Source: Bathymodiolus brooksi (lineage: Eukaryota > Mollusca > Bivalvia > Mytilida > Modiolidae). Taken from it: a stretch of 64,000 nt of DNA. Positions 5,668 through 62,656 of this stretch are shown here, piece by piece (the stretch's first letter is position 1; every line of letters starts with the position of its first letter). The translations under genes and the position numbers were made by a program. The stretch lies in contig OY804585.1 in the NCBI GenBank assembly GCA_963680875.1, positions 25,314,186 through 25,378,185 of the forward strand. The letters are read 5' to 3'. Below the pieces are notes generated by a model. The model saw nothing but the letters and a program-made list of their open reading frames with translations, had not been told where the DNA came from and ran no database searches.

Positions 5668-6420
5668 ATAATTTTTTTTTATTGCCAATTAAGGTCCCAC
5701 AAGGGGCAAACAATTTAATACAATGATTGAAATGATTGGAGACACACAAAGATACATGTAAACACACATAAAAAAACAGGAAAACATATTTAAGTTCGGT
5801 GACTGCACGGCCAGATCAGAGCCTATCAAATACCACCATAAATCAATTCACATTTAATATAACATGTATAATAACTATAATAATTCACCTAACCTAATAT
5901 GCATACATATACACATAAATATAGATATATATTTGTTTAACCATCTTAAGCAACAAATGAAAAAAAGATTCAAAGCAAATAATACAAAATCAAATTGAAA
6001 AATGTTAATAGTCAAGTCTCTTGGTTCCACAAATAAAGGTGTGGACAGAGTTCATAATAAATACATTATCATCAAAAGAAAGGTCAGGTGATCCCTTTAA
6101 GAGTACATCAATGTTTAGGAAGTCGGCTAAATCTCTTAGTTGAGTAAACAGCAAAATTCTTTGGCAAATGAAAAGTGGACAGACATAAAAGTAGTGAAAG
6201 TTGTCTTCAACATCATCCCCACAGGGACACCCTAAACTATCTGACAAGTGTGACAAGAACTTGTGTTGATTCACGTTACTTGCCAAGTTTCTAAGTTGGC
6301 AATGGAATATGTTATATTTGCTTGTACCCAAGGCAAAGTAGGGGGAGGGACAGATTAAAAAGTGTTCAACTGGGAGTACTGTCATCCACACACATAATCA
6401 TTTCTTGTAAAGTTAAATTG
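5668..6420 (-). mobile_element. 5'-truncated LINE with the ORF2 C-terminus
   Basis: The complement has an open reading frame at 6005-6391 followed by a 3'UTR and an A-rich tail preceded by GGCAATAAA near 5675-5690. The 128-codon frame encodes IFHCQLRNLASNVNQHKF then GCPCGDDVEDNFHYFYVCP, the C-terminal cysteine/histidine block found after the reverse transcriptase in many animal non-LTR retrotransposons. The RT core is missing, as expected of a truncated insertion. Confidence 0.65.
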
Positions 6421-7497
6421 GACATTGACATGATAATACACTTTACAGATTTAGAGAACTATTTATAATTTACAGTATTCAACCAAAGCAAAGGGTCAAG
6501 GTGTAATACAAACATGTATTGTCATCACTTTGCATTCCTCATAGTCTCTCATCGTAGACATACATAAACTGTTGCATATTGACCTTCTTCTCAGAAGACG
6601 CTGGACCAATTGGAGCCAAACTTGGTAGAAATGTTCATTGGGTGGTCCTCTAAAATGCTTGGTTTATTTTGATATTTTTCTAGAATCAATATATGATTTC
6701 CTGCTTGTGATTATCGAACATATTCGACCTAGCTAGCTCTTATGGTTTCAGAAATAACAAGGCTAAAAGGGAACCTAAAGTGACCTGCATCTAAAATGAT
6801 AAAAAAAAAAATTAAGTCTGATTTGCATGCAATTTTTCCATTAAATACCTTCTGTATGATATAAGGACATCAATTGGGGCCAATACCCAAAATTTATCAT
6901 TTTTATTTTAAGTCCAATTTTGATGTTTTTTCTTTTTATTCCTTATACGCTTTCCTGCTTGTATTTTTCAAAGAGATTTGACATATAGTTCTTTAGATTT
7001 CTATGCTAAAAGATGTCAAAGAGAACCAAGAGGGACCAATATCCAAAAATGAAAACTTTTCAGCTCATCTGACACAAAGAATTATGTGAGATTTTGCCAT
7101 TGATATTTGGTTTCCATAGCTGTGCAACGTCCATCCTTCATCATAAATGTTTTTAAGAATATTCTGCTCAGAAACCACTGGACCAATTTGATTCAAACAT
7201 GTCCAAGTTTAAACTAAATCATCTTTAGGGTGTCTGCTTTCAAAACTGTGACTGATGATCCTGCCAATCATTCAACATGGCTGCTATTACTATAAATAAA
7301 ACATAGGCAGTCCTCAAAGTAGCTTTTGAAACGAAGTGGCCTATTGACCACCAGGCATGAAAATGTAGTGACCAAATTGCACTAAGGAGGCTATGAAAGA
7401 GTTAAAAATTTAATATCAAACTACTCTGTTTGCTACAACTTAATCCGATTGGTTTGTACTTGTCATATCATGAAATATTCATGACATAGTCGGTTTC
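6421..7497. other. Gene-free stretch with a diverged mollusc-type repeat
   Basis: Two related blocks, near 6590 and near 7165, share a (A/G)CTGGACCAATT core followed by a GGGTG(G)TC-type segment. They look like old repeat copies. No gene is visible. Confidence 0.35.
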
Positions 7498-8292
7498 ATG
7501 TGACCCGTAATGTGTCTCCCATACCACCCATAATGTGTCTCCCATGTCACCCATAATGTGTCTCCCATGCCACCGTAATGTGTCTCCCATGCCACCCGTA
7601 ATGTGTCTCCCATGCCACCCGTAATGTGTCTTCCATGCCTCCGTAATGTGTCTCCCATGCCACCCATAATGTGTCTCCCATGCCACCCGTAATGGGTCTC
7701 CCATGCCACCCATAATGTGTCTTCCATACCACCGTAATATGTCTCCCATGCCACCCGTAATGTGTCTTCCATGCCACCGTAATGTTTCTCCCATGCCACC
7801 CATAATGTGTCTCCCATGTCACTGTAATGTGTCTTCCATGCCACTGTAATGTGTTTCCCATGCCACCCATAATGTGTCTCCCATGCCACCCATAATATGT
7901 CTTCCATGCCACTGTAATGTGTCTTCCGTGCCACCGTAATGCGTCTTCCATGCCACCCATAATGTGTCTTCCATGCCACCATAATGTGTCTTCCATGCCA
8001 CCCATAATGTGTCTTCCATGCCACCATAATGTGTCTCCCATGCCACCCGTAATGTGTCTTCCATGCCACCCATAATGTGTCTTCCATGCCACTGTAATGT
8101 GTCTTCCATGCCACCCATAATGTGTCTTCCATGCCACCATACTGTGTCTCCTGTGCCACCCATAATGTGTCTTCCATGTCACTGTAATGTGTCTCCCATG
8201 CCACCTGTAATGTGTCTTCCATGCCACCGTAATGTGTCTTCCATGCCACCATGTGTCTTCCATGCCACCCGTAATTGGTCTTCCATGCCACT
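7498..8292. repeat. 22-23-bp minisatellite upstream of the elongase start-codon exon
   Basis: About 34 tandem copies of CATGCCACCCGTAATGTGTC plus TCC, with CCCGT/CCCAT/CCGT/CTGT and CTCC/CTTC variants. It probably lies in the elongase 5'UTR intron. The complement lacks stop codons in all three frames (WHGRH-type repeats), which follows from the unit and is not evidence of coding. Confidence 0.9.
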
Positions 8293-8446
8293 ATGTATCA
8301 GTTAAAGGGAGCAAGTGAGAGATGTGATTCTAATCAGATTGAGAAAAAAAAACACATGGTATGAAATCATTTATTGAGTCAACCTTTGGTTGCTTTTAAA
8401 CTTTTCTACAATGGTACATTTAGATTTTTGTTTGTTTTTATTTTAG

Positions 8447-8525
8447 ATCAACTAAAAGATTACAAAGATGGGGTTATCATCACTGATTGATGACTATGAT
8501 GAAGCCTGGAAAGTTAAGATGGGTG
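8447..8525 (+). CDS. ELOVL: Elongase exon 1 (start-codon exon; CDS from 8468)
   Basis: A T-rich tract ending in AG at 8445-8446 looks like a 3' splice site, so 8447-8467 is probably 5'UTR and at least one non-coding exon lies upstream. ATG at 8468-8470 opens the short cytosolic N-terminus ([19 protein letters not shown]). The donor is GTATGT at 8526; the last codon is split after its first base (phase 1). Confidence 0.85.
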
Positions 8526-11500
8526 GTATGTATACAGGTTTATCATCCTTCCCTCCCACTATATCTGCCTGCTGACTCCATAAGCAAAACTCGTATCAAA
8601 GTTTGCGTGAGCTGAGCTGGACTTATCAACAGTCAGCAGGAGTTATCACCAAATTCTCCCAACATTTAAATGATAATTCCTGTGAAGATGACAAAAGTAA
8701 ATAAAATTCAGCAACACTATTAGCTAGTTAACATTTTATTTTTTAGACATATATCAAATTAGGAACTCTCGTGTCAGCAATATCAACAAACATCGTCCTA
8801 CAAAAATGTACTTGTCACAATTCTTGATAACCTCTGCTGAGACGTCATCATTTTTATGTCATAAGCGAGGTCGTGACCTTTGTGTTTTCTAAAACGGAAC
8901 AGCATTGGTAAACAAAACCGGTGAATCCTATTGCCGACTTTGATGTTTGTAATAAAAAAACAAAATACAAATATAGATGTATCTGTGTTTATGTTAGATT
9001 TAAGGATGATAAACATGTCATCTGAATGTGAATATGATTGATGCTGAAAAATATCAGCCTGCTCGACAGAATATGAAGTTTGAGACTCGTTTGCTTCGCT
9101 CACTCGCCACCAAACTTCATATTCTGGCTCGGCAGGCTGATATTTTCTGTATCAATCAATTCACATCCAGATAACATATACGTATAGTGTAGACCAAGTG
9201 GATTAATTTATTTGTCCACTGTGGGAGTTCATTACAGGAAAAATGGTGTTCATTCTTCAAAATTTTGTGCAAATCTACTGAAAAATTGTCGATAGTATTA
9301 AAAGGATAGTGTTTGCAATTTTCAGTTATATCTACTGTCATTTCTTTTTGCAATGTTACGTATATGATAGTTTAACTTTTAGTTTAAGCACCAAACATAT
9401 TTTAAACAATAAGATTTTACCTGTATATTGGTTGAAATCTTGTTATATGATCACTAATGAGGCATAAACTACATCATCTAGGATAAATACTGATGATGTC
9501 ATGGATGAGTAGGCAAGAGGCACGGATTAGGGGTATTTCTTCATAACTCTTGATTTAAGAACCATAAGAATGTCCTTTATCTCTAGCCAATGGTCATGTT
9601 GGTGCCCTCTGTCGATTCTTGCTTTATTATACATTTTTGGGGGCAATTTTTCAATTATTCAATACCATATATATAGACAGTAAATATGCTCAAGTTCAGA
9701 AATGATTGCACAGTAATAAATAGTGTATATCACAAGTCACAATATCCAAACATGTCATGGGGAGTTTTTATTTTATGCAATAGAATAAAGGGAGATAATA
9801 TTAGTCTTTGGGTAGCACTTGCTAATGAAAAAAAACATCCTCTTAGGAATGACATACTTTGCATGAGTACTACTGCATTTAGCTTTAAAATTTTCAGTTT
9901 TGCTTTCTCAAGAGGAATATTACGAGGATAATTTGTATTTATTGCCAACCAACTAAAAAAGTTATACAGTACATACTTGTATTATTTTCTAGATCCTCGA
10001 ACCCAGAATTGGTTTATGATGACATCACCCATACCTACGATTCTCATCGTCATGGGATACCTGGCCTTTGTACATAAAGGACTTCGATGGATGAAGAAGA
10101 GGGAAGCCTATGATTTGAAAAGAGCCATTCAAGTTTATAACTTCTGTCTAATCTTACTTAATGCATACATTTTCTATGAGGTGAGAAAAATAGGAAGTAG
10201 CTAATTATGATTAAAGGGGAAGATAGGTTGTGGCTAATAGAAGGGTAATAAAAACGTAGATATTTTATTTTGTGTGCATGACATGCAGAGCCAGATTATG
10301 ACCTTTTGGGGTCCATAGGCTAATGAAATTATAGGGCCCCCCCTCAGACGAAGCCACCCTAACTCACCAACACCCGTCTTGAATTTGTTTTACTCATGAT
10401 ATATTTTAGCGACATTTACATAGCTTGAAGTAAACTTATTGCAAACTAGAATGAGGGCCCACAAGCTTGAGGGACCCTAGGCTACAGCCTATAAGATAAT
10501 CCGGCTCTGACAACATGTTTCTGGAATAACTGTCATTAGTTATGCTCAAAAGTCAAAAGATTAGAAATAGGTGGTAACTATTAGTATTACATAAAAATAT
10601 AAATTGAAAACATGCAAACAGATGTACAAATCTACATTCTAATCTGACAGAAGTAAATTCTATTTATAATTTTGTGTTCATGTTTGTCTGGTTTTAAATA
10701 TGGTTATGACAGAAGCATTTATTGATGTTTTTTATTGTCAAGAGAGCAGAATATCAGCTATATTCATGAAGATAGCATCTTTAGAAATAATCAGTCATGT
10801 ACCATATGTAAAAAGATGGCACTGTCATGAACCTATGTTCAGATGTTTTGATTGACAAATACTTAAAAGGGGAGATAATGTGCCAAATACATCAAAGGGG
10901 AGATCATCAATATTGAACCAATAACATTTCTTGTATTTTTACATATGAATTCATAAAAGTTTGAACTTTGCATCCAGGTTCTTGCTTATACAAATGTATA
11001 GGTATATTCTTTTCTTTTTTTCCTTCAATTTTACTTAATTGATTGTGTTTTTGCCATAATTCTTCTAAGATGCATGTGTTCATGACATTTCACCTCCTGT
11101 TTGTATTATGATAATAAAAGAAAACAAGTAACAGGATTCTATGATAAATCTGTTTATAAATGTAGCAAAATTCCTTTTAAGACTGGAATTTTGTGATTAC
11201 CTTTTTCCTGTACAGTGAAACCGGACATTTAATAAAACAGAATCCTGTATAAACCAAAATATGAATAAAGTCTAAATGTACTAAGGAAATCTTTTTTGTT
11301 CATTTTACCTATAGAAACCTGTCTATTCCGAACACAAAAGTTGGTCCCCATGAGGTTCATGTGGATCAGAAATCCATTATGGCTACCACTACTCGATATT
11401 GTTTTACATAGAAAGCTATAGAAATTTTAATTAAAAGCTTTATCTTAGAAAAAGATAAATATTTGTTAATAGGTTAGATGATATTATTTGTGAAATTTTC

Positions 11501-14500
11501 TTTTCAACTTTTTCAGTTTTTCATATCAGCTTGGGTGAATCCAAAGGTAGATAAATTCTGTGCACCTATAGACTCATCTGATGATCCCATGTCACTTAGG
11601 GTAAGTTGCAATAAAAAATGTCCAATGTAGTATTTTGTTTTGTTAATGTTTAAAGAATCATTTGCCACTTAAAACAAACTGATCACATTACTGTAAAAAA
11701 TCATTTTGTTCCATTGATATGATCATTAAACCATCAATTTCATTGCATGGGTGAGTGAGTGATTGTTGTTCTCATGCCAAATCAGCAATTTTTCAGCTAT
11801 ATCATGGCAAGAACAAGTTACATTTTGGTGAGATGATGATAATGATGATGTCTGCTTTGTAATAGACCAATACGCTTAGTTGGATTCTTATAGCACTAGC
11901 TCACTGAAACAACAATCTGCTGGTGGACACGTCATTCCACTCGGGACACATTATCTTGAATCTGAGTCAACTCCTTAATGCTGCATGCTTGGCAGAGAAG
12001 CTGTACCAGTTATTTAAGATTAGTCGATAAAGATGGTTTGTTCCAGTTCATCATTAGCATTATGGTGTTTAATGCCACTTTCAACAATATTTCATTTATA
12101 TCGTGGTAGTGTTCCAGTCTATAAAGATAATATCAAATCTTAAAAGCTTTTAAAAGAGTATCATATTTTATGTAAGAACAGTACAAAGAATGATTTTGAT
12201 ATGATATTTCCCATGTAAATTTTTGGATCCAAAGCAGATTAAAAAAATCAGATGCATATCAATTCCTATGACGATTCAATTTCTGTAATCAATTTCTGTA
12301 ATCAATTTCTGGGGGGAAAAGGGGGGAAAGTACTGGTATGTGCGAAAATATGACAATGTTCCTAGTTTAGTTTATAACAATGTTATTTGCTCATAGAGAC
12401 AAAAAGGATCAGATACAAGTTTTACCAACCTATGTAGTGTTCTCCTTTGAATTACATACCAATTATAACAAATATTTATATTGTACAGAACAGGCACATT
12501 AATGTAAGTATATACCAGTAACAATTACACATGTAAAAGAGAACAGAAATATAGAAAGAAAAAAAGTTTTTGTTCCTAGTCACACAAGAAACAATAGATA
12601 TTATAAATAATGGTGTCTTTATCTTTACAGTTGGCAAATGCAGTTTGGTGGTTTTATTTCTCTAAGATAATTGAGCTGATGGATACTGTAAGTATATTAA
12701 CTTACATAATTATGTGTATAAACTACACCTACATATATGATAATGTATTTGTACAGTCAACAGGGTTTGGAATATTGGGCACCAATTTATTGACAACATA
12801 TCAGTTTTATTGGTGATTGGATAAAAAACCAAGGAAGTTTATTACAAAAGGTTAAATTAAGTACACCTTATCACAAAGGGTCATAATTATCATTTAGACA
12901 TTTCATTTATGAATAAATTATTTTTTCAAAATATAAAATATTAGAATTTAATTGATATTTTAATTCTATTAGAAATTTGACAATAGACAAATAAAAAAAA
13001 TTGATATACTGTTTTGTGTTAATTACAGAAGAAAAAAAGCTTACTTTGAACAGATAACCATCTAGCAAATAATTACTTGTGTAGGGAAAGAGAAACAGCA
13101 ATCTACCCATTGTTTAAATTATTTTTTTAATATTTGATTGAAGAGGTATTACCGATATGCCAAAATTTTAATACTTTTTAAAAGTTTTTCTTATGATAAC
13201 GACATTAAAACAAGGTATCCTGTTAACAGCAGTTGACAATCTTTACTAAATGCTAATTTTTGATGTCACGCATTTCATCCTGGATTGTAAGACAATGATG
13301 ATCAATAACCATAGAATAGTTCATATCAAATTAATATCATATTTTGGAATAATTTTGTTATTGCTATTTTCAGATTTTCTTCATTCTAAGAAAAAAGAAC
13401 ACACAGGTGACTTTCCTTCATGTCTATCATCACTCTACTATGCCAGCAATCTGGTGGATTGGTGTATTCTTTGCTCCAGGAGGTGAAGGTAAGTTGATTT
13501 GAATGAACACTTGCAAATGCTAAAAATCCAGTAAAAAGTAATTTTCTTTGTTGCCATGAGTACCACTGAGTTATAAATTTAGTGCATAAACCAACATAAA
13601 TTCTCAAGGAAAGTTGAAGAGCATTGATAAGATGGCGATACTTTTATAAAAAAAACCAAAAAAACATTTCATTCTTCTGAGATATTTTTTGACAATCTTT
13701 CCATTATATGTTCCTGTGTTATGGGAATTTGTAAATGTGTTGTTTGCTTAATCCAGTTTTCTATAACTGTTTTACTTCAATGTTTATCAGACTATTTGGA
13801 ATGATAGTGTGAGGGTCTATATACATTTTGATGTGTTCCACGTTTGTTTTTTAAGGTGACCGTAACAGCAATTTTGATTGTTCTGCTACATATTCTGTCT
13901 GATCATTTCTGCCTTAAGAACAGTAATAAACCGTTTTTTACTGCCATTTGGTTTCTCTCTATCTTTGTCCTTGATTGCTCATTATTGTATGCAAAAGTCA
14001 AGTAACACTCCAAATGGAATATTAAATGTCTGAAGAATTTTTATTTTTTTTAATAACATGACCTACTTTTGATTTTACATTTATAGAAAATTTTTGAATG
14101 ATTCAGGGGAGATAAATTTAAGATTTTTAGATTGACAAATTAGATATATGTAGTATATGAAAAGAAAAGTGTGAAAAAATTTAATTTGAAAAGAAAACCA
14201 ACAGCAACAATTGTTTTAGTACTTTTTATGTCATCAATGTTATTTTCAACCCCATCGGTGGTGTAATGGTTAGTGTGCTCGCCTCGAGTGTGGTAGATCA
14301 TGGATTCAAGCCACTGTAGGATCAAACCAGACTATAAAATTGATATTTGCTGCTTCTCCGTTAGCATGAGGCTTTCAGGAATAAGAGCAAAGACTGGTTG
14401 CCTTGGGAATCAGGATAATGTGTCCGAGTGGAGTGACCGGCAGACTGTTATTCAAGTGAGTTAGCACTATAAAAATCCAACTAAGCAGACATCATCATCA

Positions 14501-17500
14501 TCATCATTTCATTGACTTGTTCTTACCTTTATATAGCTAAAAAAAATGATCATTTGATGTTAAACAACAATCACTCACTCATTCTATTTTATTTTCAGCT
14601 TATCTATGTGCTAGTATCAATAGTTTCATTCACACCTTGATGTATTCTTACTACTTCCTGTCATCACTAGGACCACACATGCAGAAATATTTGTGGTGGA
14701 AGAAATACATGACAACATTACAACTGGTATGTATTTCTGTATAAGAATTCAGAGTAATCATTAAATGTAGGGGCTGTGACAACATTACAACTGGTATGTA
14801 TTTCTGTATAGGAATTCAGAGTAATCATTAAATGTAGAGGTTGTGACAACATTACAACTGGTATGTATTTCTGTATAGGAATTCAGAGTAATCATTAAAT
14901 GTAGGGGCTGTGACAACATTACAACTGGTATGTATTTCTGTATAAGAATTCAGAGTAATCATTAAATGTAGAGGCTGTGACAACATTACAACTGGTATGT
15001 ATTTCTGTATAAGAATTCAGAGTAATCATTAAATGAAGGGGCTGTGACAACATTACAACTGGTATGTATTTCTGTATAAGAATTCAGAGTAATCATTAAA
15101 TGTAGAGGTTGTGACAACATTACAACTGGTATGTATTTCTGTATAGGAATTCAGAGTAATCATTAAATGTAGGGGCTGTGACAACATTACAACTGGTATG
15201 TATTTCTGTATAAGAATTCAGAGTAATCATTAAATGTAGAGGCTGTGACAACATTACAACTGGTATGTATTTCTGTATAAGAATTCAGAGTAATCATTAA
15301 ATGTAGGGTCTGTGACAACATTACAACTGGTATGTATTTTTGTATAAGAATTCAGAGTAATCATTAAATGTAGAGGTTGTGACAACATTACAACTGGTAT
15401 GTATTTCTGTATAGGAGTTCAGAGTAATCATTAAATGAAGGGGCTGTGACAACATTACAACTGGTATGTATTTCTGTATAAGAATTCAGAGTAAGCATTA
15501 AATGTAGGGGCTGTGACAACATTACAACTGGTATGTATTTCTGTATAGGAATTCAGAGTAATCATTAAATGTAGGTGCTGTGACAACATTACAACTGGTA
15601 TGTATTTCTGTATAGGAATTCAGAGTAATCATTAAATGTAGGGGCTGTGACAACATTACAACTGGTATGTATTTCTGTATAGGAATTCAGAGTAATCATT
15701 AAATGTAGAGGTTGTGATAACATTACAACTGGTATGTATTTCTGTATAAGAATTCAGAGTAATCATTAAATGTAGAGGTTGTGACAACATTACAACTGGT
15801 ATGTATTTCTGTATAGGAATTCAGAGTAATCATTAAATGTAGAGGTTGTGATAACATTACAACTGGTATGTATTTCTGTATAGGAATTCAGAGTAATCAT
15901 TAAATGTAGGGGCTGTGACAACATTACAACTGGTATGTATTTCTGTATAGGAATTCAGAGTAATCATTAAATGTAGGGGCTGTGACAACATTACAACTGG
16001 TATGTATTTCTGTATAAGAATTCAGAGTAATCATTAAATGTAGAGGTTGTGACAACATTACAACTGGTATGTATTTCTGTATAGGAATTCAGAGTAATCA
16101 TTAAATGTAGAGGTTGTGACAACATTACAACTGGTATGTATTTCTGTATAGGAATTCAGAGTAATCATTAAATGTAGGGGTTGTGACAACATTACAACTG
16201 GTATGTATTTCTGTATAGGAATTCAGAGTAATCATTAAATGTAGGGTCTGTGACAACATTACAACTGGTATGTATTTCTGTATAGGAATTCAGAGTAATC
16301 ATTAAATGTAGGGGCTGTGACAACATTACAACTGGTATGTATTTCTGTATAGGAATTCAGAGTAATCATTAAATGTAGGGGCTGTGACAACATTACAACT
16401 GGTATGTATTTCTGTATAGGAATTCAGAGTAATCATTAAATGTAGAGGTTGTGACAACATTACAACTGGTATGTATTTCTGTATAGGAATTCAGAGTAAT
16501 CATTAAATGTAGGGTCTGTGACAACATTACAACTGGTATGTATTTCTGTATAGGAATTCAGAGTAATCATTAAATGTAGAGGCTGTGACAACATTACAAC
16601 TGGTATGTATTTCTGTATAAGAATTCAGAGTAATCATTAAATGTAGAGGTTGTGACAACATTACAACTGGTATGTATTTCTGTATAGGAATTCAGAGTAA
16701 TCATTAAATGTAGGGGCTGTGACAACATTACAACTGGTATGTATTTCTGTATAAGAATTCAGAGTAATCATTAAATGTAGGGGTTGTGACAACATCACAA
16801 CTGGTATGTATTTCTGTATAAGAATTCAGAGTAATCATTAAATGTAGAGGTTGTTGTGGTTGTATTCATATTATGGCTGCTGTTATGATAAGTAGATGGC
16901 CTAATATAAACTCCTACATTTTTCATTAAAATGAGCAGAAAAAGAAAATGTAATGTAAATGTTTCATATAGTCCGTGTAATTTTGCCAATTTTTGCTGAT
17001 CATACTAATTAAACCTACTTTAACCCCCCAAAAATCTTCTCCTCCAAAACTGAAGAAAATTACACCAAACCTGGGTTTTAAGGTCTTTTGGTGAGCCCCA
17101 TTTCAAAACTATCTGATAACCGGACTCTCAATTCAAGATGGCTGTTGTTACTAAAAATAGCATTTCTTATTTCCAAATGGACATCTATTCTACATTTTAA
17201 ATTGGAATATAGCTTCGTGATAATGAATTGGGTAATAATTATATTCAGGATTTTTCTGTGCCCTCTTTTTTTTGGACATGTAATTTTATGCTTTCTCTGA
17301 CAATTTTTTTTTATTACATGTTGCATCAACTGCTTATACAAGTTCAGTTATAACTTTGTTTATTTTTAGGTGCAATTCTGGTGGATTATGTTCCACACTA
17401 TCAATGCCATCCACCAAAACTGTGGCTTCCCCAACAAATTCAACTGGTCTCTTATAGTATATGACCTGTCTCACATCATCCTCTTCACAAACTTTTACTA

Positions 17501-17591
17501 CGAGACCTACACAAAGAAGGAAAGACGACTCAAATTGGAGAAAGAAATGATCGCTAAAGCTGAAGAGATAAAAGGAAATAAAGTCAATTAA
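8468..17591 (+). CDS. ELOVL: ELOVL-family very-long-chain fatty-acid elongase (7 coding exons)
   Basis: Join of 8468-8525, 9993-10180, 11517-11600, 12631-12687, 13374-13488, 14599-14726 and 17370-17591. This gives 852 nt, 283 residues plus a stop, with GT..AG introns throughout and no frame break. ELOVL enzymes are multi-pass ER-membrane 3-ketoacyl-CoA synthases that condense malonyl-CoA with a fatty acyl-CoA, the first step of each two-carbon elongation cycle. Motifs seen: DPRTQNW near residues 20-26, KIIELMDT (KxxExxDT) 122-129, [11 protein letters not shown] with the HxxHH box at 145-149, N175/H179 with MYSYY at 182-186, and TxxQxxQ at 206-212. Q140 before the histidine box is typical of the ELOVL4/1/7 and PUFA-elongase type rather than the saturated/monounsaturated type, which has K. 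The length matches the family (about 270-320). The lysine-rich C-terminus ends KGNKVN and has no clean KKxx or KxKxx ER-retrieval signal. The subfamily (ELOVL4 versus ELOVL1/7) needs a tree. Confidence 0.94.
9013..9179. mobile_element. Foldback MITE in elongase intron 1
   Basis: Arms of about 68 bp (9013-9080 and 9112-9179) pair through ATATCAGCCTGC and CAGAATATGAAGTTT, with a 30-bp centre. No coding potential. Intron 1 (8526-9992) is otherwise unremarkable. Confidence 0.65.
9993..10180 (+). CDS. ELOVL: Elongase exon 2
   Basis: Residues 20-82. The acceptor is TTTTCTAG at 9985-9992; the donor is GTGAGA at 10181. The exon opens with [16 protein letters not shown], the conserved ELOVL N-terminal motif, followed by the first hydrophobic helix and the charged [10 protein letters not shown] loop. 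It is in phase with exons 1 and 3. Confidence 0.93.
10286..10509. mobile_element. hAT-type MITE in elongase intron 2
   Basis: 224 bp with termini CAGAGCCAGATTAT at 10286 and the complement of CAGAGCCGGATTAT ending at 10509. The flanking octamers ATGACATG and ACAACATG are an imperfect 8-bp target duplication, as hAT elements make. The rest of intron 2 is AT-rich without features. Confidence 0.65.
11517..11600 (+). CDS. ELOVL: Elongase exon 3
   Basis: Residues 83-110 (28 codons, phase 0 at both ends). The acceptor is TTTTTCAG and the donor is a consensus GTAAGT at 11601. It encodes [10 protein letters not shown] and the loop containing C97 and [10 protein letters not shown], the usual variable lumenal segment between the first two conserved ELOVL blocks. 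Confidence 0.92.
11751..12020 (-). mobile_element. SINE-A copy in elongase intron 3 (tRNA head missing)
   Basis: On the plus strand it starts GTGAGTGAGTGATTGTTG, then AGCAATTTTTCAGCTATATC, GACCAATACGCTTAGTTGG and GCTGCATGCTTGGCAGAGAA, in the order seen in full copies such as 41031-41394. The tRNA-related end is truncated. A SINE-B fragment follows at about 12057-12115. Confidence 0.7.
12631..12687 (+). CDS. ELOVL: Elongase exon 4 (KxxExxDT motif)
   Basis: Residues 111-129, a 57-nt exon in phase 0. The acceptor is CTTTACAG and the donor is GTAAGT at 12688. It carries [19 protein letters not shown], including the invariant KxxExxDT signature. Confidence 0.94.
13374..13488 (+). CDS. ELOVL: Elongase exon 5 (histidine box)
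   Basis: Residues 130-167 plus one base of the next codon. The acceptor is TATTTTCAG; the donor is GTAAGT at 13489. It contains [11 protein letters not shown]: the HxxHH box at 145-149 is required for condensation activity in this family. [12 protein letters not shown] follows. Confidence 0.95.
14252..14582 (+). mobile_element. SINE-A, full length, in elongase intron 5
   Basis: The tRNA-like head GTGGTGTAATGGTTAG (A-box-like) and GGATTCAAGCC (B-box-like) is near 14258-14315. The SINE body and the terminal AACAACAATCACTCACTC follow. The element ends about 16 bp before the exon 6 acceptor at 14598, so the branch point of intron 5 may lie inside the SINE. Confidence 0.75.
14599..14726 (+). CDS. 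ELOVL: Elongase exon 6 (MYSYY motif), flanked by repeats
   Basis: Residues 168-210 after completing the split codon. The acceptor is ATTTTCAG at 14591-14598; the donor is GTATGT at 14727. It encodes the [12 protein letters not shown] motif and the start of TxxQxxQ (TTLQL). The last 17 bases (14710-14726) and the following donor are the founder of the 67-bp minisatellite downstream. A SINE ends about 16 bp before the acceptor. Confidence 0.94.
14710..16854 (+). repeat. 67-bp minisatellite copied from the exon 6 / intron 6 junction
   Basis: 32 units of exactly 67 bp. The first contains the genuine exon 6 end (14710-14726) and donor (14727). Each later unit repeats TGACAACATTACAACTG followed by GTATGTATTTCTGTATA and the intron's next 30-odd bases. 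Donor copies run from 14794 to 16804 at constant spacing: (16804-14727)/67 = 31. Units differ by single bases only (AGGGGCTG, AGAGGTTG, AGAGGCTG, AGGGTCTG; ATAAGAATT or ATAGGAATT). The array fills about 80% of intron 6. Retaining any part would add V-C-I-S-V and then a stop. Confidence 0.97.
16855..17369 (+). other. Remainder of elongase intron 6
   Basis: Diverged repeat-like sequence (for example TCCAAAACTGAAGAAAATTA) and a T-rich 3' end before the exon 7 acceptor. No separate gene. Confidence 0.4.
17370..17591 (+). CDS. ELOVL: Elongase exon 7 (terminal coding exon)
   Basis: Residues 211-283 and a TAA stop. The acceptor is TTATTTTTAG at 17360-17369. It begins VQFWW, completing TxxQxxQ with exon 6, and carries the last transmembrane segments and a charged tail rich in K and E ([20 protein letters not shown]). 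The GTG at 17370 is an internal Val codon, not a start. Confidence 0.94.
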   Translation: MQFWWIMFHTINAIHQNCGFPNKFNWSLIVYDLSHIILFTNFYYETYTKKERRLKLEKEMIAKAEEIKGNKVN

Positions 17592-17638
17592 GTTGGTCGT
17601 TACGAAAAACTGAGAAAATTTCAGAAAAGCATGAGATT

Positions 17639-17902
17639 AATAAATGTGATAGCTACTGTAGATGATAATGAGAATGTTGTGTGTACCTGTACTCATGTAA
17701 ATGCTTTTGTACTTTTTGTGAACATGCATGCACACCTGTAGGTAGCTGTAATAGAAAAAGTTTGCATCTATGCAACAAAGTATATAAGTAAAATTGTGAA
17801 AGTTTGTTCTTAACTGGTACATTGTATGTGGAGAATTGTATGGCATACAATTGTAATAGTACATGTTTTTACAGTTAGAGAGCTTGTATACATGTAAATA
17901 AA
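17639..17902 (+). promoter_or_regulatory. Candidate polyadenylation signals of the elongase
   Basis: AATAAA occurs at 17639-17644 (48 bp after the stop) and again at 17897-17902. Both lie before the 2.39-kb tandem array begins at 18061. The second gives a more usual 3'UTR of about 320 nt; which one is used cannot be told from sequence. Confidence 0.5.
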
Positions 17903-18992
17903 ATTCAGAAATGTATACCTGTGGAGAATGTTATGAATACTAGTTCATGTTTCTACAGAGATCTTGTATACATGTAACTTAAATTCAGAAATTTACAAAC
18001 ACACATGTACATGTAAATGAGAATTTTTTTGCAGTTTGTATAAAAATTCCAAACTTGTTAGTAAAAACAGTCAACAATAATTTGATACATACAAAGAAAC
18101 AACAGTTAATAACGATCATGAAAATAGTAAATTCATATATTTTTGCCGTTTTAGGTCACATGGTCCAGGTACCATGTTGAGCTATCGTCATCACTTTTAC
18201 ATCAGCTGTCATCTTTATTATCATCATCCCCATCTTTGTACAGTAACATATTCTTTTCCAAAACATATCGCCGAATTGAAGAAAAAAACTTTGCAGAAAT
18301 GTTCTTGTAAGTATTCCTCATCAGAATTTATAATTTGGTGCCAATGTGAAATTAAATTCAATATGGCTACTAGAGCCCATGTGAAATTAAATTCAATATG
18401 GCTACTAGAGCCCATGTGAAATTCAATTCAATATGGCTGCTATAGCCAATGTTGCAATTTGATTGGCTGAGCTTCAAAGCTCTTTTATTCATTAACTACT
18501 ACTCAGTCATTTGAAATTGAATATGATGAGAATAATTCATAAGGTGGCCAGTCCTTAGCAAATGTTTTTTGATTGGTAATCCAAAATGGCATTCAACACA
18601 GGGCACTTTTTAACACAAGAACCTATGGGGAAAATGTGTTACATATATCTTTTCTCTGAAACAACTTAACCATCTGAAAGCAATCTTGGCCAGAATGTTC
18701 CTTTGATAATTTTAAAAAAATACATTTTTTTTGGTGTCAATCAAACCCTATAGCAAAATTAATAACTATCTTTTTTCAATGACACTATATATTGAACCCA
18801 AATTGTACATGATCCTCTACCAGTTGTATTTTTTTCATATTGATCAGAAATTAAATGTTGTTACCATTGCAGGAAAATTTGAAAAGATTTTCCCAGCAAT
18901 GGAAATAAGTAAAACTAAAAACATGTTTGAATTCAATCATTACATAAGTGATAATTAAAAATAATAAACATAGCTAAGATATAATTTATAGC

Positions 18993-19156
18993 CAGGCCTT
19001 TTGGTCATAAAACATTTGAGCATAAGTTTGTACTCGTAAATGGAAAAAAAACAGCCAATCAGAACACTTTATCAAATAAATACTTTGTTCTTATTGAACA
19101 ATTTTGGAATACGAGTATAAAAATCGTACTCTGAAGTTTTATGACCACAAGGCCTG
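18993..19156. mobile_element. MITE-like 164-bp inverted-repeat element in each 2.39-kb unit
   Basis: 21-bp termini CAGGCCTTTTGGTCATAAAAC and its complement with one mismatch (19136-19156). It is repeated at the same offset in copies 2-4. No ORF; no target duplication identified. Confidence 0.6.
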
Positions 19157-19262
19157 ATGACTGATACAGGCCGACAGAAAGCTGTAGTTTACCAACACAA
19201 CTGAAATTTTATACATGTAAGGAATAATAGACAATTAGAATTCAAGATTTATTTTACTTTTT

Positions 19263-19931
19263 AGCCGAGTTGCGACGAAGTCGAACTTGGCTTATAATAT
19301 GATGAATGTTGTCCGTGCGTCAACTTTTTCTTTTCTGCACAATATCTTAAGAATGAAATGTCTGATCTAAATGAAACTTGGTACACACATGCCTGGTGGT
19401 GAGAGGAGGAAGCCTATTGATATTGAGGATCATAGAACAAAGGTCAAGGTCACAACTTCTAAAAATAGAACACAAATTTGATAAGAACGAAATGTTAGAT
19501 CTAAATGAAGCTTGGTACACACATGCCTGCTGGTGAGAGGAGGAAGCCTATTGATATTGAGGTTTATTGGACAAAGGTCAAGGTCACAACTTCTAAAAAT
19601 AGAACAAAAATTAGATACTTTTTTTTTGTTTCCGCACAATATCTTAAGAACGAAATGTCGGATCTAAATGAATCTTGGTACACACATGCGTGATGGTGAG
19701 AGGAGGAAGCCTATTGATATTGAGGTTTGTAGGTCAAAGGTCAAGGTCACAACTTCTAAAAATAGAACAAAAATTTGATACTTTTTTGGTTTCCGCACAA
19801 TATCTCAAGTACAAGAAACTAAGTATGCACATTCTAGCACCAAACAAAATAAATAAATATCACAGCAAAGACTAAGGTTCAGAATTATATAACTAGGCAT
19901 TGTCCATCCATCATATGTTCGCAACTCGGCT
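19263..19931. mobile_element. 669-bp TIR element in each 2.39-kb unit
   Basis: Perfect 13-bp inverted ends AGCCGAGTTGCGA and TCGCAACTCGGCT. Inside are three diverged sub-repeats of about 130-165 bp containing ACTTGGTACACACATGC, GGTGAGAGGAGGAAGCC and AAGGTCAAGGTCACAACTT. No transposase. The equivalent element is present in copies 2-4. Confidence 0.65.
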
Positions 19932-20448
19932 TTCGCACTTTTGGTGCGTTATTGATTTTTTGATTTTATAAGATAATTTGTTTTTCTTTTTTACTTTTAA
20001 TTGATTATTTTTAGTTAATTTCATCTCGAGTCACTAGTCAGTAATATATTTTAATAGCCAGGATAACTCAAACTTTTGATATTTTTATATATAATTTTTA
20101 ACTTTTTGATAGATTATTAGTGGTTTATTTTACACCAAAGATGATTCATTAAACATCACTTAAAACTTAAAATTCTGCAATAAAGCCATTTAGATCTCAT
20201 AAATTCAGTTGAAACTCAGTGTTAAAATATTTTCCTTTATATGTTTATATGTACAATGTAATTATGCAATTAAACTAATAAGTTCTCATAAATTCAATTG
20301 AAGCTCAGTTTGTGGAAATAATATAGAAACAACTCTACATGTGTTTGACTTAAAATATAATTATGCAATCAAGCTATTTAGTTCTCTTAAATTCAGTGAT
20401 TATAATCATTTGTTACTCAGTATGAGGAATTAGTATAGAGGCCGTCTT

Positions 20449-32427: not shown

Positions 32428-55486
<23,059 letters not shown>

Positions 55487-57696: not shown

Positions 57697-58815
57697 TCGT
57701 ACGAGGCGTGGACGGACGGACGAACAGCGGTATGCCATAATAAGCCCGTATTTTGACGGGCGTATATAAAAATGAATGGCCCATATCCTGAAATTACGAA
57801 TATATCATTTTTGGCCAAATTATTTTTCAAAACTTTCATCAGTTTAAAGCATTTGTCGGACTATCGGACCGTCGGACTGTCGGACTATCGGACTGTCGGA
57901 TTATAGCTACGGCCCCCCTGTGGACAGTACTAGAGGTTTCTTCTGAGAAAGCCCAGTGTCGAATTGGCCTTTTCGCTACGTTTGCAATTTGTGTTGTCAA
58001 TCCTCTGATATTTAGAGGCCAAGGTATGGATTGTTTTGGACTTGTTGTAGTATATGTCCATTTAAGCTGTAGAAATGCTGGCTTTTGCTTTTTATGTTCA
58101 GAATGTAGCATTGTTTGGCATTGAATCTCATGCCCCAATCATTTGCCCATGCTTCTAAGCTTTTAAGGTCTTCTTGCAGCAGTTGATGTTCTTTGCTGAC
58201 TTGATGGTTCTGTAGACAGTCGTATGCAAATAGTCTTACTGAAGATATTACTATATCTAGGATGTCACTTATGTGAGAGAGGAAGAGTAACGGTCCAAGA
58301 ACTGTCCCTTGCGGCACCCCGGAGTCTACTGTTACGTCTACTGATTGTTCTCCCTCTACTACAACTTTCATCTTCCTGTGCGTCAAGAACATATTTAGCC
58401 AGTTGTTTATTGGTCCTCGTATTCCATACGAATCCATTTTTAAGAGTAGTTTTTTGTGTGGTACTGTGTCGAAGGCTTTAGAGAAGTCTAAGATGGCAAC
58501 ATCGGTTTGCAGTCCAGCATCGTATGCTTTCATGAAGTCGTGGAGTGTGACTAATAGTTGAGTTTCGCATGAATAGCCTGATCCGAAACCGTGGTTTAAT
58601 GATGTTAGTATTCTATGCCTTTCTAGATGTTTCATTATATGTTTGCATATTATATGTTCAAGGAGTTTGCATGGTACTAATGTTAGTGATACCGGCCTAT
58701 AGTTTTCCGCGGCAAGTTAATTATCTCCTTTTTGTACACATATGATATGCTTGCGCTGAGCCAGTCCTCTGGTAGTGTTAAGCATCATCTAAACATTGAT
58801 AATTTTATACAAATA

Positions 58816-60488: not shown

Positions 60489-61763
60489 TATCCTACCGTG
60501 ACATCTGCTCGGTCATGCAATGAAGTTGATCACTTGTTTTGATTTACAATTCTCGCGCAGCACGAGACCAATGACGTCATTCTGTATATTCATAGCGTAC
60601 ATAAACACTGAGGGAATACTTTTCAACGTCAAAATTACAAGATGAGATTAAAACAGAGAAGTTTGAATTGAATAAATTCCATGCAAGTAAAAAAGATCCT
60701 TTTTACTAATGTCTTTTTTTCCTGATCATTATGCTTGTTAAATATGTTTTCATCGATGGTATTCCCCAAACATTTGTATTTTTCCGGTTTGTTGACATAA
60801 TCGTCATCACAGTTCATGACCGTTTCTGGAATGTAGGCCAAGCAAATTGTATTTTAAAATACTTTGAAAATATGATGATTGATCATTCAGATTCCACCAT
60901 TTTCTAGAAAATGGCTGATTTTACCGGGAAAATACATGCAAGTGCCCTCCATTAGTCACAAAATGGCAGATTATTTTGCATTTCCACTGCTGCTTTAATA
61001 ACAAATATACCCCTTACTTCTTAGGGTATTGAAATGAAATTCACAGAGAAGATAGAAAAAGAATTAATTTAACAGCAATAATCAAAATTTATAGCATAAA
61101 TTGAACAGAGAATTAAATTAAACCAGACAGAAAAATGAGATTATCTGGGTTAAAAAAAACCTGTCATTATTACAAATAGCATCAACAAAACTGTATTGTT
61201 ACCACTCTGTGATAATAAATGTGATTAAAATAAATTGAAATCAGTCATTAATTGTTTTAACAAAATATGTCGGTCTAATACTATAGATTGTATTGACAAA
61301 AGCAAAAACACAAAATTCACTGGATTAAATACTTTTTATGTGGGTAAGCAAGTTTAATTTTTGCATCAAATAATTAATTTTTAATACTTCAATTTCAAAC
61401 TATTTAAAAAAAACATCTTTTGAAATTTTTCAGACAAATCAATTACACTGAAAAAGCTAAAATACTGTACTTTCTTAATCTGGTTTACTTTTTAAGTTTG
61501 GTTGGCCTATGACAAAATCATGTGCTTTATTGAAATTTGACCGGCTTTATGTGACATCATACGACGCCATTTGGAAAATGGATGGTAAACAAATACAGGT
61601 CAGTGTGTTATTATTATCGATCTTTTTTCCATGGAACTTTACACATGTGAGCAAGAATAGATGAGGAACATAATTAAAAAGAAAAAAATGTTTACTTTTC
61701 AAACATGAAAAAAATAATCAAACATAATCCAATGACTGACCGACTTATTGTCAGACGAGGATA
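60489..61763. mobile_element. 1.28-kb TA-flanked element, copy 2 (uninterrupted)
   Basis: Inverted relative to copy 1 at 33289-39744, with high identity along its length. It supplies the empty-site sequence TATGAATATACAG for the 5.2-kb insertion. The open stretch at 60635-60841 (complement) parallels that at 34229-34417 of copy 1. No recognised transposase. Confidence 0.8.
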
Positions 61764-62656
61764 CTACAAGGTACGTAACCGTTCATTTGTAAAAAATCTA
61801 GGTCATCGCGATTTTCGCGTTTTTTCAACTCGACTGACGCCAGCATGAAGGAATGGCCTACATCATCTGAAACTACGATAATTTATCTACAAAATGATGT
61901 ATAAAACACCTACCTTTGCTGAACCTCAACAATGCAACAGACCTTTTTCCACGGGTCAGTTATCAGCTTTCATCATCCAGTTGGTCACCTGGCAAGTTCT
62001 AGCCCGCAGTGAAAGAAAAAATAAGATAAGTTGTAATAAAAATGCTATAAAAAATACTGAGATGTTAGAAAATTATATATATTGCATTCCAATAAAAAAA
62101 ATTAATAAAAGTGTTTTAATTTCTTAGAATAAAAGTGTAGTTTGAATGCAAATCTGTGGCTATTTTTAGAATTCAAAAATTTGTAAATTTCTATACAACC
62201 TCGGGATTTTTCCCTGAAGTATATCAACAGGACTGAAAGTCTTATAGGCGGGAAAATTAATACAGCATCACATGTTTCTTTTTGCATCTTCTCCATTTTG
62301 ATGAAAAATTATAAAAATAAACTTCAGAATTCCAGCTTGCTAAATGTAATGAGAAACTTCGACCAATCAAATACTTTACCTGAGTTCGACCTTGAACTTT
62401 TCATTCACTGCGGGGTAGAACTTGCCAGGTGACCAACTGGATGATGAAAGCTGATAACTGACCCATGGAAAAAGGTCTGTTGCATTGTTGAGGTTCAGCA
62501 AAGGTAGGTGTTTTATACATCATTTTGTAGATAAATTATCGTAGTTTCAGATGATGTAGGCCATTCCTCCATGCTGGCGTCCGTCGAGTAGAAAAAATGC
62601 GAAAATCGCGATGACCTAGATTTTTTACAAATGAACGGTTACATACCTTGTAGTAT
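61761..62656. mobile_element. 896-bp element with about 258-bp inverted repeats
   Basis: Arms 61761-62020 and 62397-62656 begin ACTACAAGGTACGTAACCG and stay similar through AGGTCATCGCGATTTTCGC, CATCATCTGAAACTACG and CACCTGGCAAGTTCTA. TA lies at both borders. The 376-bp centre has no ORF of note. Confidence 0.8.

Follow-up and report, generated by a model that had tools for sequence, protein, structure and literature searches.

Minisatellites that repeat the 5' splice site of an exon are known from the human genes ABCA7, CBS and IFI6. The intron 18 VNTR of ABCA7, with a unit of 25 bp in about 12-427 copies, begins with the exon 18 donor (PMC5954066). Retention of one unit gives an out-of-frame transcript with a PTC, the PTC transcripts increase with cycloheximide, and two frameshift isoforms are reported at 14 and 2%, respectively (PMC5954066); from the "respectively" wording we read the 2% figure as unit retention, i.e. 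use of the second donor at about that level. Longer arrays show more skipping of exon 19 and lower expression, with unit retention unchanged (PMC5954066). In CBS, a 31-bp VNTR designated c.1444_1467+7(16_21) occurs in 16-21 copies of invariable unit length (PMC2630376), and the title of Lievers 2001 links it to reduced enzyme activity. The minisatellite of IFI6 (6-16/G1P3) gives multiple splice donors, as stated in the title of Turri 1995; two downstream repeat units serve as donors (PMC4526556), and three mRNA species encoding isoforms are described. Apart from these, internal tandem repeats at exon-intron boundaries of human segmental duplications alter splicing (PMC2812944). Unlike the array described below, they average four units of 30 bp, lie in primate-specific gene copies and are described as giving rise to novel introns. 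The W repeats of EBV (PMC12451641) were set aside as a parallel, the repeated element there being whole exons.

The array considered here lies in a fatty-acid elongase gene of the mussel Bathymodiolus brooksi, within a window of 64,000 nt (contig OY804585.1, positions 25,314,186 to 25,378,185, forward strand). As in ABCA7, the authentic donor of an exon heads the array and recurs along it; use of the second copy retains a unit in ABCA7, introduces a PTC and makes the transcript subject to nonsense-mediated decay (NMD), and would do the like here. However, the ABCA7 unit starts at the GT without exon bases, whereas the 67-bp unit here includes 17 of them; furthermore, the next exon of ABCA7 is internal and is skipped more often in long arrays, whereas here it is the last coding one. 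The CBS unit, judged by its name to comprise 24 exon and 7 intron nt, also spans the exon-intron boundary, but it is a shorter unit of a human gene, for which population genotypes exist and a paper title draws a link to enzyme activity. With IFI6 the locus shares a minisatellite that supplies several splice donors. The IFI6 unit is 12 bp long, so that the frame is kept, and its array sits at the exon's own donor; its mRNAs encode isoforms, whereas the decoys here lead to a stop at once.

An invertebrate case of a donor-spanning array was not met in the literature searched, which is not proof of absence. A search combining bivalve, minisatellite, intron and splice site found no paper (absence from print is not thereby proven), and a repeated donor was not seen in the available parts of a clam globin paper (PMC4732748) and of a paper on earthworm metallothionein that describes minisatellites in introns (PMC12783039). 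The elongase array is a further case of a known kind rather than a unique one; the features that distinguish it are the exact 67-bp register, the 17 exon bases, the single immediate stop and the mollusc host.

The elongase gene and its relatives

An ELO-family elongase gene with seven coding exons occupies the plus strand over a coding span of 9124 nt (8468-17591). The joined exons amount to 852 nt including the stop codon and encode a protein of 283 aa.

8468..8525, plus strand: exon 1, coding part (gene model)
9993..10180, plus strand: exon 2 (gene model)
11517..11600, plus strand: exon 3 (gene model)
12631..12687, plus strand: exon 4 (gene model)
13374..13488, plus strand: exon 5, with the HVYHH box (gene model)
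14599..14726, plus strand: exon 6, 128 nt, preceded by the real 3' splice site and closed by the real donor, copy 1 (match of the 283-aa open reading frame to the protein P0001; Pfam ELO match of exons 4-7)
17370..17591, plus strand: exon 7, coding part up to the stop codon, the partner of donor 1 (gene model)

Exons 4-7 match the Pfam family ELO (PF01151, E = 1.1e-50), and the residues encoded by exon 5 include HVYHH, which fits the HXXHH box of ELO-type fatty-acid elongases. On the strength of the domain match and this box, the product is assigned as an ELO-type fatty-acid elongase. Of the 120 matches listed out of 725, the nearest relative is P0001, a protein of 283 aa with 98% identity over the query: 278 of 283 residues agree and five differ. 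The named matches that follow among the same 120 belong to the molluscs Pinctada, Pecten and Solemya, with identities of 65-72%. A tree was built from the window protein and 24 rows hand-chosen from 226 listed proteins, 25 rows in all; most of its inner forks are unresolved. In this tree, P0001 is the partner of the window protein (100/100), and the pair falls in a group of 16 rows, whose 11 named rows are all molluscs. A protein of Tegillarca granosa (P0009) is without two residues exactly at the join of exons 6 and 7 (LQL|FW), and this gap is a hint that an intron may occupy the corresponding position in that species.

Structure and origin of the array

Tandem Repeats Finder (TRF) reports an array at 14710-16854 with a period of 67, 32.0 copies, 96% matches and 0% indels. 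The base at 16854 is one further T, equal to the first base of the unit, and the array proper stops at 16853.

14710..16853, plus strand: minisatellite of 32 units of 67 bp (2144 nt), each with the 17-nt exon end, the donor and further intron, 50 nt of intron in all (TRF and unit-by-unit comparison)
14727..14732, plus strand: gtatgt, the authentic exon 6 donor (pairs weakly with U1)
14777..16853, plus strand: 31 decoy units, copies 2-32, with the decoy GT at 14794 + 67k for k = 0-30, the last at 16804 (donor positions and unit comparison)

Unit 1 combines the 17 nt that close exon 6 (14710-14726) with the 50 nt that open intron 6. The sequence ACAACTGGTATGT occurs 32 times on the plus strand, once per unit, and is not found on the minus strand; likewise, ACAACTG|GTATGT is present in 32/32 units and the donor 9-mer CTGGTATGT does not vary among them. 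Every further unit thus repeats the usable-looking donor CTG|GTATGT, which counts 32 copies with the authentic one. The initial annotation had described an array of 32 length-constant 67-bp copies beginning in exon 6 and offering 31 decoys with the same 5' splice site, and both statements are borne out here; its end point alone moves, from 16854 to 16853. So regular an array of 2 kb is no chance product.

Variation is confined to 11 of the 67 columns of the unit. The 32 units comprise 18 distinct ones, and two units are on average 96.67% identical. Columns 35, 62 and 65 vary at intermediate frequency and in several combinations, the A/G change at column 35 toggling between TAA (13/32 units) and TAG (19/32 units). 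Within the exon-like part, columns 4 and 10 vary, and they do so only in copies 16, 18 and 32, all of them untranslated. Unit 32 carries four differences from the consensus, as do units 10 and 16, and differs from the other units at 3.16 positions on average (1.87 for unit 1). A higher-order repeat within the array is not claimed: over 12 lags, the best value was an uncorrected p of 0.03 at lag 4, followed by 0.06 at lag 11, with the others above 0.15. Elsewhere in the window, the 20 matches listed for the unit extend over 10-14 nt only.

Selection on the decoy donors was considered and is not shown. With 11/67 columns variable, none of the nine donor columns would vary 18% of the time (0/9, p = 0.18), so the intactness of all 32 donors, striking as it looks, provides no evidence of selection. 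The exon-plus-donor columns gave a similar result (2/23 variable, p = 0.19), and an invariant run over columns 11-27 reached p = 0.03 but was chosen post hoc; these p values treat the columns as independent.

The direction of the duplication can be read from the protein alignment. The motif K-K/R-Y-(M/L/I)-T-x-x-Q-L, whose end is coded by the 17 exon bases, is conserved in all 25 aligned elongases (the window protein and the 24 chosen rows); the exon end is therefore ancestral and the array derives from it, having grown out of exon 6. The seed would have been a tandem duplication with its left breakpoint 17 nt inside exon 6, and the minisatellite would have grown later by exact unit exchange or slippage. 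This mode of spread is suggested by the fixed period and by the mixing of variants among units, and it agrees with the unequal exchange proposed in the initial annotation, slippage being the other form it may have taken. The array reads as young and as probably subject to repeated exchange.

Other features of the window

Further repeats lie on both sides of the gene. An array of a 23-bp unit in about 35 copies (7503-8291) stops some 180 bp short of the elongase start codon; an open frame of 272 aa runs across it on the minus strand. About 450 bp past the stop codon begin four tandem copies of a segment of about 2.4 kb (18041 to about 27580), in which a 300-bp reference stretch recurs with 100% identity in 4/4 copies at spacings of 2388, 2388 and 2353; each copy contains smaller repeats of 35, 134 and 163 bp. 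A 26-bp array of about 127 copies with 97% matches is located at 48368-51715, where periods of 53 and 237 are also called. A 234-aa open frame on the minus strand (58015-58716) matches the reverse transcriptase RVT_1 (E = 3.4e-24) and is probably a piece of a retrotransposon. Inverted repeat pairs at 33288-34470 and 60582-61764, which are 94-97% complementary and 26-28 kb apart, may represent a single mobile element that is present twice, the copies facing opposite ways. On the plus strand at 46434-46784, a weak CENP-B_N match (E = 0.0019; 18.3 bits, under the Pfam cut-off of 21.2) is possibly a transposase remnant.

Coding consequences of decoy use

Translation of the modelled decoy transcripts gives a uniform outcome.

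14727..14744, plus strand: VCISV-stop, read upon use of any decoy donor (31/31 decoy products)

Since the stop codon (14742-14744) sits in the intron part of unit 1, all 31 decoys yield one identical truncated protein of 215 aa ending in LQLVCISV, just as the initial annotation had foreseen for any decoy (V-C-I-S-V-stop). What differs among them is the length of the exon and the distance of the stop from the junction downstream: 195 nt and 49 nt for copy 2, 262 nt and 116 nt for copy 3, and 2205 nt and 2059 nt for copy 32. A stop more than about 50 nt before a junction usually marks a transcript as an NMD target. By this rule, products of copy 2 would be borderline and those of copies 3-32 would be targets; with the stop at 49 nt (copy 2) or at least 116 nt (copy 3 onwards) before the junction, most leaked transcripts would therefore be cleared by NMD.

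Choice among the donors

The sequence of P0001 carries the join of exons 6 and 7 (...TTLQL|VQFWW...). It is found on two contigs, the longest of 2452 nt, as against a coding span of 9124 nt here, and therefore most likely comes from spliced RNA. An mRNA in which donor 1 is spliced to exon 7 is thus very probable. The usability of donor 1 in that near-identical gene is strongly indicated, which is compatible with some use of decoys; P0001 is not tied to the array-bearing allele, and its source may be an allele or a closely related species that carries fewer units, or a processed gene copy. The preference for the first copy assumed in the initial annotation is thus upheld as to the usability of donor 1, but not as to this allele. 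When the decoy product was used as a query (215 aa ending in VCISV, residues 160-215 scored; 146 matches, 120 listed), the best match among those listed was again P0001, with 93% coverage. Neither VCISV nor LQLVC was present in the 226 proteins listed by the two protein searches, a negative that is weak because the lists hold cluster representatives only.

The local context of the donors points in both directions, and two features of exon 6 are involved.

14699..14704, plus strand: GAAGAA motif of exon 6, immediately outside the repeat and missing ahead of the decoys; candidate enhancer (position read from the sequence, role putative)
14701..14738, plus strand: 10-bp perfect inverted repeat around donor 1, arms 14701-14710 and 14729-14738 (stem search, folding)

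The U1 pairing of CTG|GTATGT amounts to -4.8 kcal/mol, against -11.6 for the consensus. This ties exon 6 with exon 1 as the lowest of the gene's six donors, exon 4 having -4.9 and exons 2, 3 and 5 having -9.5 to -10.1. Upstream of the decoys, the sequence reads TAGGG in 15, TAGAGG in 13 and another form in three of the 31. We take GAAGAA to be an enhancer-like exon sequence and TAGGG to be hnRNP A1-like, a contrast that would favour copy 1. Nevertheless, among identical competing donors in vitro the intron-proximal one is often favoured, which here is copy 32. Furthermore, in a local folding model donor 1 is the least open of the 32 (unpaired 0.001, against 0.007-0.034 for the 31 decoys) because of its 10-bp stem. 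This stem is the longest among the gene's 370 GT sites (the inner GTs of the array excluded, donor 1 included), has pair probabilities of 0.90-0.99 in three contexts and is absent at all six decoys checked; donors 2-5 are partly paired as well. As a special structure the hairpin was rejected, the fold being ordinary against dinucleotide shuffles (z = -0.84, 39/200 as good).

Competing explanations

We consider it probable that the array is a near-neutral intronic minisatellite, seeded by a tandem duplication from exon 6, with donor 1 dominant and slight leakage. Copy 1 would remain the working donor because it alone is joined directly to the real exon, in a context that comprises the 3' splice site 128 nt upstream and the GAAGAA-type sequence, while each decoy would lengthen exon 6; occasional leakage into the first decoys would give the one truncated product. 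Counting against this reading are the possible origin of P0001 outside this allele, the weakness and closure of donor 1, and the intron-proximal preference noted above. The inverse correlation of length and expression in ABCA7 also speaks against plain neutrality of such arrays. The main rival, tuning by copy number, is possible but unlikely: decoys would be used frequently, and longer arrays would lower elongase output through NMD of the VCISV-stop transcripts. The same early stop in 31/31 decoys and the weak donor 1 would suit it, as would the reduced activity named in the title on the CBS 31-bp VNTR and the ABCA7 length effect on expression (PMC5954066); yet the same source gives ABCA7 unit retention itself as unchanged by array length, and no decoy product is found among the 226 listed proteins, which are cluster representatives only. 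It is unlikely that all of this amounts to a 32-way contest of donors with an identical core, in which the exon context of copy 1 picks the winner and array length would be an inherited dial on fatty-acid elongation, acting via one NMD-prone transcript.

That the array acts on splicing through its length, RNA pairing or bound factors and not by way of the decoy donors, e.g. by intron 6 retention or slow splicing, is quite improbable, even though the 38-bp VNTR in TERT intron 6 works through RNA:RNA pairing (PMC3948165), the ABCA7 length effect falls on exon 19 skipping (PMC5954066) and TAGGG precedes 15 of the 31 decoys. Rfam gave no matches over 6000-20000 at gathering thresholds, the three folded donor regions were no better than shuffles, and since no coding exon follows exon 7, skipping of the ABCA7 kind would remove the 3' end. 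Near-identical units are difficult to assemble, and the true copy number might differ or the array be inflated; this is very improbable, as 18/32 units are distinct, several with private variants, which simple assembler duplication would not yield. The initial annotation had also suggested that units could act as cryptic micro-exons, spliced in from TTCAG to the next donor. Each unit does contain a TTCAG with a donor 41 nt downstream, but the pyrimidine tract is weak (fraction 0.53, with other AGs close by), and the AGs of the unit range over 0.35-0.59 against 0.71-0.88 for the six real acceptors, which renders such splicing extremely improbable.

Implications

With one and the same donor 9-mer in 32/32 copies, position and exon context can be told apart here from the sequence of the donor. 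The locus could therefore reveal how the spliceosome chooses among donors distinguished by their place alone, and which copy prevails in an invertebrate, the intron-proximal or the exon-proximal one. Furthermore, a kind of array that was otherwise met in this analysis only in human genes is now seen in a lipid gene of a mollusc, which suggests that such arrays originate repeatedly wherever tandem repeats are common.
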